From the NCBI GenBank assembly GCA_019456285.1, contig VRUE01000019.1:1-32074 (forward strand): a stretch of DNA of 32,074 bases, in the 5' to 3' direction. This document shows positions 12,765-17,599 of the stretch, piece by piece. The position numbers and the translations under genes were made by a program. Position 1 is the stretch's first letter, and each line of letters starts with the position of its first letter. Source of the DNA: Solirubrobacterales bacterium (lineage in GTDB: Bacteria; Actinomycetota; Thermoleophilia; Solirubrobacterales; 70-9). The notes under the pieces are model-generated. The model made no database searches, had not been told where the DNA came from, and worked only from the letters and a program-made list of their open reading frames with translations.

Positions 12765-13907
12765 ATGACCGTCACCTTCGCCGAGAAGCTCGCCCTGATG
12801 CCGCGCTACCGGGCCGGCGTCCCGGCCGGGCAGGCGCCCGAGGCGATCGCCTCGGGCGAGATCGCCCAGCTCGCCTCCAACGAGTCGCCGTTCCCGCCCC
12901 ACCCGAGGGTGGTCGAGGCGATCCGGAACGCCGCGGGGGCGATGAACCGCTACCCGGATCCGGGCGCGACGCTGCTGCGCCGCCGGATCGCCGAGCGCTA
13001 CGAGACCGAGCCCGCCAGGATTGCGGTCGGCAACGGCTCCTGCGAGATCCTGCTCGCCGCCGCGGAGGCGCTCTGCGAGCCGGGCGCCGAGATCCTCTAC
13101 GCCTGGCCGTCGTTCTCGATCTACCCGCACCTGGCGGCGCTGACCGGGGCGCGCGAGATCCGGGTACCGCTCGCCGCGGGCGAGGTCCACGACCTCGACG
13201 CGATGGCGGCCGAGGTGACGGCCGCCACCCAGCTCGTCCTCGTCTGCAACCCCAACAACCCGACCGGCACCCACCTGCCGGCGACGGAGATCGCCGCCTT
13301 CTGCGAGCAGCTGCCCGCCCGCGTCACGGTCGCGCTCGACGAGGCCTATGTCGAGTTTCAGACCCACGACGACCCCGACGCCACGGTCGACCTGCTCGCC
13401 GAGTTCCCCAACCTGGTCGTCCTGCGCACATTCAGCAAGTGCTACGGCCTGGCCGGCCTGCGGGTCGGCTACGCGATCGGCTCGGCCAGGTTCCGTGCCG
13501 CGGTCGACGCGGTGCGCCAGCCGTTCAGCGTCAACGCGCTCGCTCAGGCCGCCGCCGCCGAGGCGATCCTGCACTCCGACGATGTCGCCCGCCGGGTCGA
13601 GGGCACGATTGTCGAGCGGATCAAGGTCGAGGAGGAGCTGCGTGGGATGGGCTTGACCACGGCCGACACCGAGGCCAACTTCTCGTGGATAGACCTCGGC
13701 GAAGCCGGGGAGGCCGACGTCGTCGCCGGGCTGGCGGAGCGCTCGATCGCAGTCCGCCCGGGGGCCCCTCTCGGCGATCCGGGCCACATCCGGGTCACCT
13801 ACGGCACCGCCGCCGAGAACGACCGCTTCCTCGCCGCCCTCGCCGAGCTGCTGGACAATTGCGCCTCATCTGCTACAAAGTCTTTGGAGGATGAAGCGAA
13901 CCGGTGA
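12765..13907 (+). CDS. HisC-family PLP aminotransferase (histidinol-phosphate or aromatic amino acid aminotransferase)
   Basis: QLASNESPFPPHPRV, CNPNNPTGTHLP, DEAYVEF, RTFSKCYGLAGLRVGYAIG. Genomic context is aromatic biosynthesis. Confidence 0.9.
   Translation: MTVTFAEKLALMPRYRAGVPAGQAPEAIASGEIAQLASNESPFPPHPRVVEAIRNAAGAMNRYPDPGATLLRRRIAERYETEPARIAVGNGSCEILLAAAEALCEPGAEILYAWPSFSIYPHLAALTGAREIRVPLAAGEVHDLDAMAAEVTAATQLVLVCNPNNPTGTHLPATEIAAFCEQLPARVTVALDEAYVEFQTHDDPDATVDLLAEFPNLVVLRTFSKCYGLAGLRVGYAIGSARFRAAVDAVRQPFSVNALAQAAAAEAILHSDDVARRVEGTIVERIKVEEELRGMGLTTADTEANFSWIDLGEAGEADVVAGLAERSIAVRPGAPLGDPGHIRVTYGTAAENDRFLAALAELLDNCASSATKSLEDEANR
13852..13879 (+). promoter_or_regulatory. Candidate promoter for the aroF leader, inside the 3' end of the aminotransferase gene
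   Basis: TGGACA (13852-13857), 16-bp spacer, TACAAA (13874-13879); 11 nt to ATG 13891. Confidence 0.4.
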
Positions 13908-13983
13908 CACCGCGAGCGGCACCTGCGCCTCCGGCGCCGTGCTCGACTCTGCCCGCCTCTCCTATTTCTGGCGATTTAGCTAG
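13891..13983 (+). CDS. Candidate leader peptide MKRTGDTASGTCASGAVLDSARLSYFWRFS
   Basis: ATG 13891 to TAG 13981-13983, aromatic cluster Tyr-Phe-Trp-Arg-Phe directly before the stop, upstream of DAHP synthase. Not in the ORF track (too short). An internal GTG at 13939 would give a 14-aa version. Confidence 0.55.
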   Translation: MKRTGDTASGTCASGAVLDSARLSYFWRFS

Positions 13984-14036
13984 GCGTCCGGCCTGGCGGC
14001 GTTTCGCCGCACCCACAGAGCACTCGGCCGGATGCC
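13983..14036 (+). promoter_or_regulatory. Nested stem-loop after the leader ORF, candidate attenuator element
   Basis: GGCGTCCGGCC(13983-13993)/GGCCGGATGCC(14026-14036), 11 bp with one G-U, enclosing GCGGCG-TTT-CGCCGC (13996-14010). Confidence 0.55.
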
Positions 14037-14133
14037 GAATCCCTTGTTTCGCGTGTTTCGCGGTGCTGCGCTCGGATCGCGAGACCCGCCCGAAAAGTAG
14101 GATTTTCAGGCTTTGGAGAAAGGTGATGGCAAA

Positions 14134-15216
14134 ATGATGCTCGGGATGCAGGGGGAAACGCGAGATCGGGTTCGGGACCAGCGGATCGAGCGGATCGTGG
14201 AGCTGGTCCCGCCCATGACGCTGTTCGACGAGCTGCCGCTCGGCGAGGAGCGGGAGGGGGCCGTGGTGCGCGGGCGAGGCGAAGTCGGCAATGTCCTGGA
14301 CGGCAGCGACGACCGCGTCCTGGTCGTGGTCGGCCCCTGCAGCGTCCACGACGTCGAGGCGGCGCACGAGTACGCCTTCAGCCTCAGCGAGATCGCGGAG
14401 GATCTCAGCGAGCAGCTGCTGATCGCGATGCGCGTCTACTTCGAGAAGCCGCGTACCACCACCGGCTGGAAGGGGCTGATCAACGACCCCCACCTGAACG
14501 GCTCCGGGGACGTCAATTCCGGCCTGCGCATGGCCCGCAAGCTGCTGCTCCAGGTGCTCGACCTCGGCCTGCCGGTCGGCTGCGAGTTCCTCGACCCGAT
14601 CACGCCGCAGTACATCTCCGACACGGTCGCCTGGGGGGCGATAGGCGCCCGCACGGCCGAGAGCCAGATCCACCGCCAGCTCGGCTCCGGCCTCTCGATG
14701 CCGATCGGGTTCAAGAACCGCACCGACGGAGACGTCCAGGTCGCCGTCGACGCGGTTCGCGCCGCCGCGGTGCCGCACGCGTTCGCGGGCATCGACGACA
14801 GCGGCGCCCCGGCCATCCTGCACACCACGGGCAACCCGGACGGCCACGTCATCCTGCGCGGTGGCAAGGATGCGCCCAACTACGATTCCGACGGAGTCGA
14901 AGAGGCGCTGGCCAAGCTGCGCGCCGCCGGGCTGCCCGAGCGGCTCGTGATCGACGCCTCCCACGACAACAGCGGCAAGGACCCCGACCGCCAGGTGGTC
15001 GCGGCGGGCCAGATCGCCGATCAGATCGCAGACGAGAAGGCGGAGATCGTCGGCGCCATGCTCGAGTCGTTCCTCGTCGAGGGCCGCCAGGACCTCGAAG
15101 GCGGCGAGGCGCTCACCTACGGCCAGTCGATCACCGATCCCTGCATCGGCTGGGACGAGACGGTCACGGTGCTCAACCGGTTCGCGGCGGCGGTTCAGGC
15201 GCGGCGCGGCGAATGA
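14134..15216 (+). CDS. aroF: 3-deoxy-7-phosphoheptulonate (DAHP) synthase, class I (AroF/G/H type)
   Basis: VVVGPCSVHD, MRVYFEKPRTTTGWKGLINDP, GCEFLDPITPQYISDTVAWGAIGARTAESQ, IDASHDNSGKD. SD GGAGAAAGG upstream. Confidence 0.95.
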   Translation: MMLGMQGETRDRVRDQRIERIVELVPPMTLFDELPLGEEREGAVVRGRGEVGNVLDGSDDRVLVVVGPCSVHDVEAAHEYAFSLSEIAEDLSEQLLIAMRVYFEKPRTTTGWKGLINDPHLNGSGDVNSGLRMARKLLLQVLDLGLPVGCEFLDPITPQYISDTVAWGAIGARTAESQIHRQLGSGLSMPIGFKNRTDGDVQVAVDAVRAAAVPHAFAGIDDSGAPAILHTTGNPDGHVILRGGKDAPNYDSDGVEEALAKLRAAGLPERLVIDASHDNSGKDPDRQVVAAGQIADQIADEKAEIVGAMLESFLVEGRQDLEGGEALTYGQSITDPCIGWDETVTVLNRFAAAVQARRGE

Positions 15217-16298
15217 GGGTCGCCATCCTCGGGGTGGGCCTGATCGGAGGCTCGATCGGGCTCGCCGCGCGGCAGCGGCTGGAGGGCGAGGTGGTCGGGT
15301 TCGACCCCGACCCCGGCACGCTGGAGCGGGCGGCGCGGGCCGGCGTCGTCGATCGCAGCGTGGGCACGGCAGCCGAGGCCTGCGAGGGCGCCGGGGTCGT
15401 CTTCTGCGCGGCGCCGGTGGCGAGCCTGCCGGGTCTGGCGGGCGCCGCCCTGGACGCCTGCGGCCCCGACGCGGTCGTCACCGACGTCGGCTCGACCAAG
15501 CGCGAGATCGTCGCGGCGCTGGGCGCCGGCGAGCGCTTCATCGGCGGCCACCCGCTGGCCGGCGCGGAGACCTCCGGCGTTGAGAACGCCCGCGCCGACC
15601 TCTTCGAGGGCGCCCGCTGGTACCTGACCCCGACCGCGCGCTCCGGCGGCCTCCTCTACGACCGGCTGCAGCGGACGATCACCGGGCTCGGCGCCCGCCC
15701 GCAGGCGATCGACGCCGAGACGCACGACCGCCTGATGGCGACGGTGAGCCACCTGCCGCACGTGGTCGCCAACGTCCTGGTCGGGCAGGCGGCGGCGGAG
15801 CTGACCCGCGACTCGGAGCGGATGCCCGAAGTCGGCCCGAGCTTTCGCGACACGACCCGGGTCGCCGGCGCCAACCCGGCGATCTGGGGGGACATCTTCT
15901 CCACCAACCGCGGCGCGGTCGCGGCGGCGATCGACGCGACCGGAGCGCGGCTGCGGGAGGCGGCGAAGCTGATCCGGGCCGGCGACCGTGACGCCGTCGC
16001 CTCCTGGCACGCCGCGGCCGCGGCGGACCGCCGCGGCCTGCTGGAGGCCGACCTGGCCGGAGGGCCGCTGCACGAGCTGCGCGTCGTCGTCGTCAACCGG
16101 CCCGGCACGATCGCCGAGCTGGCGCTGGTGCTCGGCGAGGCCGGGGTCAACATCGAGGACATGGCGCTCCACCCGGCGCCGGACATGACCTCGGGGGCGG
16201 TCTCGCTCTGGGTGGCCGGCGAGGAGCAGGCGGAGCGCGCGGTGGCGCTGGTGCGGGAGCTGGGCCACACGGTGACCGTGCTCGGCGCCGCGGAGTAG
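15213..16298 (+). CDS. tyrA: Prephenate/arogenate dehydrogenase
   Basis: GVGLIGGSIGLAAR, TDVGSTKREIV, FIGGHPLAGAETSG, SHLPHVVANVL, C-terminal ACT-like segment RVVVVNRPGTIAELALVLGEAGVNIEDM. Confidence 0.93.
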   Translation: MRVAILGVGLIGGSIGLAARQRLEGEVVGFDPDPGTLERAARAGVVDRSVGTAAEACEGAGVVFCAAPVASLPGLAGAALDACGPDAVVTDVGSTKREIVAALGAGERFIGGHPLAGAETSGVENARADLFEGARWYLTPTARSGGLLYDRLQRTITGLGARPQAIDAETHDRLMATVSHLPHVVANVLVGQAAAELTRDSERMPEVGPSFRDTTRVAGANPAIWGDIFSTNRGAVAAAIDATGARLREAAKLIRAGDRDAVASWHAAAAADRRGLLEADLAGGPLHELRVVVVNRPGTIAELALVLGEAGVNIEDMALHPAPDMTSGAVSLWVAGEEQAERAVALVRELGHTVTVLGAAE

Positions 16299-17599
16299 TG
16301 GTGGCAGCCCGCTTCGACCCCTCGGGCCCGCTGCGCGGGACCCTGCGCCCGCCGCCCGACAAGTCGGTCTCCCACCGCGCGGCGCTGATCGCCGCGATGG
16401 GGGAGGGCGAGACGGCGATCGAGGGCTACCTCGACTCGGCCGACACCCGCTCGACCCTGACGGCGATCGAGGCGCTCGGCGCCCGGGTCGAGGGCGTCGA
16501 CGCCACCGGGATCGAGCCGGTCATCCGCGTCCGCGGCGTCGGCCTGCGCGGCCCCGCCGGCGCGGACATCGACGTGGGCAACGCCGGCACGCTGCTGCGG
16601 CTGCTGCCGGGCTGGCTGGCCGGGCAGGAGACGGGAGCCTGGGCGCTGGACGGCGACGACTCGATCCGCTGCCGGCCGGTCGACCGGATCGCCGAGCCGC
16701 TGCGGCTGATGGGGGCGCGGCTGCGCTGCCGCGACGGCCGCCTGCCGCCGCTGCGGGTCGAGGCCGCCCCGCTGCGGGGCATCTCCTATCGGCTGCCGGT
16801 GGCGAGCGCCCAGGTCAAGTCGTGCCTGCTGTTCGCCGGTCTGCTGGCCGCGGGCGAGACGCGGCTGGCCGAGCCGCTGTCCAGCCGCGATCACACCGAG
16901 CGGATGCTGGTCGCCGCCGGCGCCGAGGTCGAGCGACAGGACGGCGCCGTCGGGGTGCGGCCGGCGGTGCGGCTCGAGCCCGGCGAGATCGTCGTCCCCG
17001 CCGACTTCTCCTCGGCCGCCTTCTTCGTCGTCGCGGCGCTGCTCGTCCCCGGCAGCGATCTCACCCTCGCCGGGGTCGGTCTCAACCCGACCCGCACCGG
17101 GCTGCTGTCGATCCTGGCGCGGATGGGCGCCGAGATCGAGGTCGAGGGCGAGGGCGAGCGCGGTGGCGAGCCGAGCGGCCGGATCCGTGTCCGCCCGTCG
17201 CAGCTGCGCGCCGCCGAGGTCGGCGGCGCCGAGATACCGCTGGCGATCGACGAGCTGCCCCTGGTGGCGCTTGCCGCCTGTTTCGCCGAGGGCACGACGA
17301 CGATCCGCGACGCCGCCGAGCTGCGGCGCAAGGAGTCCGACCGGGTCGCCACCGCGAGCGAGGCGCTGGCCGCGCTGGGCGGCAGGGTCGAGCCAACCGA
17401 GGACGGGATCAGGATCGAGGGCGGCGGCGGCCTGCGCGGGGGGGCGGTCGACTCGCACGGCGACCACCGGATCGCGATGCTGGGGGCGGTCGCCGGCCTC
17501 ACCTCGCGCCAGGGCGTCGAGGTCGAGGGGATGGACGCCGCCGCGGTCAGCTACCCGGGCTTCGAGGCCGACCTCGCCTCGCTCCTCCGCGGCGGCTGA
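16298..17599 (+). CDS. aroA: 3-phosphoshikimate 1-carboxyvinyltransferase (EPSP synthase)
   Basis: PPDKSVSHRAALIAA, VGNAGTLLRLLPGWLAG, SAQVKSCLLFAGLLAAGET, RRKESDRV, GDHRIAML. Confidence 0.95.
   Translation: MVAARFDPSGPLRGTLRPPPDKSVSHRAALIAAMGEGETAIEGYLDSADTRSTLTAIEALGARVEGVDATGIEPVIRVRGVGLRGPAGADIDVGNAGTLLRLLPGWLAGQETGAWALDGDDSIRCRPVDRIAEPLRLMGARLRCRDGRLPPLRVEAAPLRGISYRLPVASAQVKSCLLFAGLLAAGETRLAEPLSSRDHTERMLVAAGAEVERQDGAVGVRPAVRLEPGEIVVPADFSSAAFFVVAALLVPGSDLTLAGVGLNPTRTGLLSILARMGAEIEVEGEGERGGEPSGRIRVRPSQLRAAEVGGAEIPLAIDELPLVALAACFAEGTTTIRDAAELRRKESDRVATASEALAALGGRVEPTEDGIRIEGGGGLRGGAVDSHGDHRIAMLGAVAGLTSRQGVEVEGMDAAAVSYPGFEADLASLLRGG

Follow-up and report, generated by a model that had tools for sequence, protein, structure and literature searches.

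An amino acid attenuator typically responds to a single amino acid and has an intrinsic terminator at its end, and control of the DAHP synthase step by its three products is otherwise exercised through separate isoenzymes, each of which senses one product. In the trpL and pheL attenuators, as in the leader described here, the control codons lie near the end of a short ORF and a hairpin starts at the stop codon; trpL and pheL, however, possess a U-tract terminator and mutually exclusive stems and respond to one amino acid, whereas the present leader has no such terminator and no conserved set of such stems and contains codons for three amino acids. Judged by analogy, the closest known system is AroR from Corynebacterium glutamicum, a Phe-Tyr-Phe leader upstream of aroF (Neshat et al. 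2014) that is described as raising transcription on limitation of Phe, not Tyr (PMC4046766, PMC11802643). AroR resembles the present family in being an actinobacterial leader ORF with aromatic codons directly 5' of a DAHP synthase gene, and the transcriptional response to an aromatic amino acid via ribosome stalling in its published description is the same principle that is proposed here. As far as that description goes, the present family differs from AroR in always containing Tyr and Trp, and often Phe, in its W-R-F-x-stop ending with fixed codons, in the position of a stem, P1, on the stop codon, and in the two classes of DAHP synthase that lie behind the leader.

Other candidates share fewer features. 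The uORFC-13-1 motif from Acholeplasma is a candidate uORF before aroF that contains Phe codons and lies beside an apparent intrinsic terminator; both it and the present leader are candidate uORFs before an aroF-type gene, with no common sequence reported (PMC8632094). The LEU element and the Cys leaders of Actinobacteria are candidate leader peptides from which attenuator parts are missing, as they are here, and the Cys leaders have no conserved terminator hairpin, for which Rho was suggested, but the amino acids and structures differ from those of the present leader (PMC1262725). The same actinobacterial survey reported no conserved RNA regulatory structures 5' of Phe or Tyr operons (PMC1262725), and a literature search found no paper naming such a leader in the Solirubrobacterales-type order. 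The principle is therefore already known; the novelty lies in codons for three amino acids within one leader, an end module of fixed sequence, the lack of a terminator and the retention of the leader when the enzyme behind it is swapped.

The window, the whole stretch of 32,074 nucleotides that was analysed, carries the gene row rsuA, chorismate mutase, hisC-type aminotransferase, leader, class I-alpha DAHP synthase, tyrA, aroA, cmk and der (Table 1). The mini-ORF ending in LSYFWRFS that the original prediction had placed upstream of DAHP synthase is exact in both position and translation. It is approximately 30 codons long, its ATG sits within the last codons of hisC, and its TAG (13981-13983) is followed 150 nt further on by the DAHP synthase ATG. 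The ORF is missing from gene tracks and is now annotated, in an order on which little experimental work exists.

Table 1. Coordinates of the leader, its putative control elements and the adjacent genes in the window.
Feature	Position	Strand	Remarks
hisC-type aminotransferase	12765..13907	+	TIGR01141, 298 bits; immediately 5' of the leader/DAHP synthase interval; stop codon 13905-13907
Extended -10 element TGCTACAAA	13871..13879	+	TGNTA(A/C/G)AA in homologues; TSS expected at ~13886-13890
Leader peptide ORF MKRTGDTASGTCASGAVLDSARLSYFWRFS and stop	13891..13983	+	Start overlaps hisC 3' end; homologous ORFs of 21-41 codons in >110 loci
Putative aromatic control codons TCC TAT TTC TGG (S-Y-F-W)	13960..13971	+	Aromatic identity kept, codons drift
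Invariant end module CGA TTT AGC TAG GCG	13972..13986	+	CGA and TTT in 115/115 aligned leaders
Stem P1: 5' arm GGCGTCCGGC (13983-13992), 3' arm GCCGGATGCC (14027-14036)	13983..14036	+	Loop holds an inner hairpin; covariation, fold z-score
-10-like TAGGAT, gene-proximal, possible second promoter	14098..14103	+	TANNNT in 61/111 loci
Class I-alpha DAHP synthase (aroF/G/H family)	14134..15216	+	TIGR00034, 477 bits; PF00793; gene behind the leader
Prephenate dehydrogenase (tyrA) and EPSP synthase (aroA)	15213..17599	+	3' of DAHP synthase, same gene row

DAHP synthase was sought in 61 relatives and the DNA upstream of the gene was read, and in most of them the gene is preceded by an ORF that ends in a Y/F/W-rich stretch followed by W-R-F-(S/I/T)-stop. 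Screening 85,488 species genomes for CGATTTANCTAGGCGYYCGG gave 111 stretches, almost all labelled Solirubrobacterales, Thermoleophilia or plain Actinomycetota, and the few that are labelled otherwise (a 'Bifidobacterium breve' MAG and an 'Acidimicrobiia' record) fall among the others on a hisC tree. Carriers of the element include the cultivable relatives Conexibacter, Solirubrobacter and Svornostia. The leader and gene row of the 'Bifidobacterium breve' record (L101) cluster with Svornostia on this tree, and this entry probably bears a wrong label or contains contamination. More than 110 orthologous leaders, always 5' of DAHP synthase, were found in Solirubrobacterales-type Thermoleophilia, the order of the window genome, and the family is found in most sampled members of this group of soil actinobacteria. 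There is one leader per genome (in the window genome, the next covariance-model match has an E of 0.2), nearly always in the order hisC-leader-DAHPS-tyrA-aroA, with hisC 5' of the leader in 93 of the 113 loci that reach far enough.

In a class-wide draw, the exact 15-mer is present in 120 of 176 own-order genomes, with 0 in a backwards control, and in 1 of 223 genomes from the other orders of the class; that one sequence (G346) is identical to an own-order contig (L034), and its occurrence outside the order is probably a matter of binning or naming. A 15-mer in another class (G465), from a phylum-wide draw, was rejected as a chance match without ORF or stem, and outside the order the two draws contain chance or contamination cases only. 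Two sampled sister groups of the class possess no such ORF upstream of DAHP synthase, with only chance-like cases among the ORFs (6/58), and the viral contigs checked contained none.

In the window sequence, the probability of at least four aromatics in the last eight codons is 2e-4 at the 4.4% aromatic content of the window's genes. Across 115 non-redundant loci, the 14-codon stretch ahead of the end contains a mean of 4.06 in-frame aromatics versus 0.88 in shuffles and, when read in the other two frames, 0.12 and 0.59; an in-frame stop is absent from it in all 115 leaders. Tyr and Trp occur in 115/115, and Phe occurs beside them, upstream of the fixed UUU Phe, in 59/115; together with that fixed codon, these residues support the joint sensing of Phe, Tyr and Trp that had been suggested for the window. 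The aromatic codons drift synonymously (TAT 101 and TAC 115; TTC 68 and TTT 11 in the 115 leaders), and the residues before the last ~12 are poorly conserved. Nearly all leaders terminate in W-R-F-x-stop. As the original prediction had anticipated, the aromatic mini-ORF and its stop codon are kept in frame, while the flanks drift, in every leader aligned.

The leader end reads CGA TTT ANC TAG GCG, and over the last four codons the constraint acts on nucleotides rather than amino acids, whereas in the aromatic stretch the amino acids are kept and the codons are free, so that two kinds of constraint are present. Among the 115 loci, which were collected via the end motif itself, the final Arg is CGA in 115/115, although CGA accounts for only 1 of the 167 remaining Arg codons of these leaders, the final Phe is TTT in 115/115, the last sense codon is A-N-C in 113/115 (AGC, ATC, ACC), and the stop is TAG. 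In the window's own genes, CGA accounts for 2.1% of Arg codons, TTT for 2.6% of Phe codons and TAG for 1 of 10 stops. The independent check of end invariance is a covariance-model search, and the diverged copies it recovered have TTC once, GTC, CGC or ATG as the last codon and a single loss of TAG, and still have CGA and W-R-F; the last residue is variable (S, I, T, R, V, M). The sole stop-less copy seen (L219, G236:C3) has CAG in place of TAG (WRFRQA) and an intact P1. A programmed frameshift at CGA-UUU was rejected, given that the +1 frame lengths are scattered and that reading in the -1 frame meets a stop immediately in ~80/115 leaders.

Stem P1 consists of 10 bp, GGCG-YY-CGGC with GCCG-RR-CGCC, and its first base is the G of TAG in all aligned members; its loop, ~25-65 nt in most, varies in sequence and length. 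In an alignment of 86 sequences, chosen for loci with at least 9/10 pairs, 98.0% of cells are paired and double changes occur in 57 cells versus 17.6 in shuffled alignments, and pairing falls to 34-51% when the partner is shifted by 1-3 columns. Across all 123 loci, at least 9/10 pairs form in 97% and 10/10 in 76%, compared with 22% and 1.4% when the downstream DNA is shuffled. The stem in the window folds with -33.7 kcal/mol (z -3.7). Three loci from one genus (L220-L222; G265, G239, G187) have an extra base in the P1 5' arm (GGCGCTTCGG), apparently giving a bulged stem. A search with 4227 Rfam covariance models gave no match, either at the gathering score or with E relaxed to 10, and a T-box or riboswitch was rejected, as conservation is limited to P1 and the 15-nt end module and Rfam gave no match.

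No U-tract that would make P1 an intrinsic terminator follows the stem, and no terminator-like site is present in the region in the window; folding of 111 leaders without the segment that a ribosome would cover revealed no conserved structure competing with P1. The lack of an intrinsic terminator after P1 and of a conserved alternative to it both count against an attenuator. The trpL/pheL paradigm that was invoked for the window holds as a principle, with control codons before a hairpin, but not in its intrinsic terminator or rival stem. The C/G ratio is 1.3-1.4 in the transcribed leader and following interval versus 0.85 in flanking genes, with only a mild C excess in the window (34% C, 30% G); such an excess of C over G would fit Rho-loading RNA, without proving Rho.

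The promoter proposed in the original prediction, TGGACA (13852-13857), N16 and TACAAA (13874-13879), is present, and its -10 part is conserved: TGNTA(A/C/G)AA precedes 69 of 111 homologous leaders, versus a mean of 0.6 in shuffles. This extended -10 (TGNTACAA) lies mostly 8-14 nt 5' of the leader start codon, and because of this short distance the leader mRNA would be near-leaderless, with the TSS at or just before the start codon. Initiation on the leader is thus probably near-leaderless, and the GGAGG that abuts the ATG would therefore not be a Shine-Dalgarno. The GTG at 13939, which had been considered as the true start, is unlikely, given that the nearest relatives begin at the position of ATG 13891 (V/M-K-R). 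Closer to the gene, a TANNNT lies within 60 nt of the DAHP synthase start in 61/111 loci, nearly all at -23 to -40, and may serve as an additional promoter for basal expression, 3' of the attenuator. A promoter between P1 and the gene in approximately half of the loci would bypass the leader, which counts against an attenuator; the other half lack this element, however, and the core mechanism therefore cannot depend on it. A MAK-stop mini-ORF at 14126 was rejected, as it is not conserved among relatives.

As read from the sequences, the element is quite likely to be a cis-acting, translation-controlled attenuator of the DAHP synthase-tyrA-aroA row that is ribosome-mediated and senses all three aromatics, and the leader very probably senses a shortage of Tyr, Trp or Phe and thereby controls the pathway. 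Two hallmarks of attenuators are present, namely end-product codons clustered in a short ORF that is predicted to be translated and a hairpin positioned for ribosome-dependent formation. The in-frame aromatics, the location of P1 on the stop codon, the conserved promoter, the fixed gene order, the enzyme swaps behind the leader and the precedent of AroR all argue for an attenuator, and control codons followed by a stop-anchored stem are the anatomy predicted for a ribosome-position switch. The promoter just 5' of the leader would give a near-leaderless mRNA of which ~30 codons would be translated. Under a shortage of charged Tyr-, Trp- or Phe-tRNA, the ribosome would stall in the Tyr/Trp/Phe-rich stretch with its leading edge short of or at P1, which starts in the stop codon, and P1 would form; when aromatics are plentiful, it would reach UAG and cover the P1 5' arm. 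The switch would lie between P1 formed and P1 covered, and stalling would be expected to raise DAHP synthase expression. For the output step, Rho-dependent termination or mRNA decay appears more likely than an intrinsic terminator, and the output is perhaps Rho-dependent. One leader with codons for all three aromatics at the shared entry step is the logic expected for DAHP synthase.

The invariance of CGAUUUANCUAG at the nucleotide level is not needed by ordinary attenuation and counts against it. It is possible, albeit doubtful, that the leader instead encodes a programmed pause, in which rare CGA and UUU, UAG and P1 act as a ribosome brake, or nascent W-R-F arrests the ribosome, and that it measures more than tRNA charging. 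The near-exclusive reservation of CGA for the final Arg, the rarity of CGA, TTT and TAG in the window's genes and the retention of W-R-F in diverged copies favour a pause, as does geometry: a ribosome holding CGA in its P site and UUU in its A site would have the base of P1 11 nt ahead, counted from the first base in the P site, a spacing at which stem-loops hinder A-site tRNA binding (PMC7282821). The variable last residue and the copies with TTC or without TAG, however, speak against it, and a slow site alone would give no amino acid specificity. The attenuator and the pause may tentatively be combined into a distinct attenuator class, in which CGA-UUU-NNN-UAG and P1 at the mRNA entry channel would form one conserved pause module that reads the charging of three tRNAs without an intrinsic terminator and is old enough within the order to have kept its place during repeated exchanges of the enzyme gene behind it. 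The codon-fixed end and a stem at ribosome-channel distance provide a mutable test of stop-proximal codon choice in an attenuator.

Translational attenuation, in which the ribosome-binding site of DAHP synthase would be masked either by P1 or when P1 is absent, is unlikely: the freed P1 3' arm can pair near this site in some members, the window included, but over 111 loci the site became less accessible by more than 0.1 in 15 and more accessible in 13, with no consistent effect. The constraint on nucleotides rather than amino acids over the last four codons would suit CGATTTANCTAGGCG as a DNA operator or an RNA-protein or ribonuclease site to which the surrounding ORF is secondary, yet the motif nearly always closes an aromatic-rich open frame and adjoins a covarying stem, neither of which an operator needs, making this improbable. 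A trans-acting product has reportedly been described for rhizobial trpL, and a similar role here, with P1 ending a short RNA or the peptide acting elsewhere and DAHP synthase using its own -10, is very improbable; P1 is stable and most of the 61/111 gene-proximal TANNNT elements lie at ~-23 to -40, but approximately half of loci lack such a promoter, the peptide is poorly conserved before its last ~12 residues, and the element stays immediately 5' of DAHP synthase even after an enzyme swap. The likelihood of a chance ORF in a GC-rich intergenic region is negligible. Although the ORF is short and unannotated, with GGAGG abutting its ATG, conservation in more than 110 loci, the in-frame aromatic bias, the covarying stem and the lack of any such ORF in sister orders already refute this reading, and, as far as sequence comparison can tell, a chance origin is excluded across the 115 homologues.

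Upstream of trpE in 24 relatives, where the longest-frame anchor was not clearly trpE in several, a Trp-rich ORF was not found, and the DAHP synthase leader may therefore be the main aromatic attenuator in these genomes. The gene behind the leader encodes a class I-alpha DAHP synthase at 47 loci and a class I-beta enzyme, either long or short, at 72. The hisC tree shows 13 changes of class (9 of these forced by well-supported branches) with an unchanged leader, and this retention through 13, or at least 9, switches suggests selection on control of the step rather than on one enzyme. Given also its absence in sister groups, the element appears to be a trait of the order that belongs to the pathway step rather than to a particular enzyme; as a control element conserved independently of the protein controlled, the leader has persisted longer than the enzyme behind it. 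The invariant CGATTTANCTAGGCG, the covarying P1 and the occurrence of the same leader before a different class of DAHP synthase were not part of the original prediction. Six loci (L018, L036, L041, L075, L079 and L105) carry two tandem DAHP synthase genes behind one leader, either I-beta then I-alpha or two I-alpha, and are possible intermediates of an enzyme swap.
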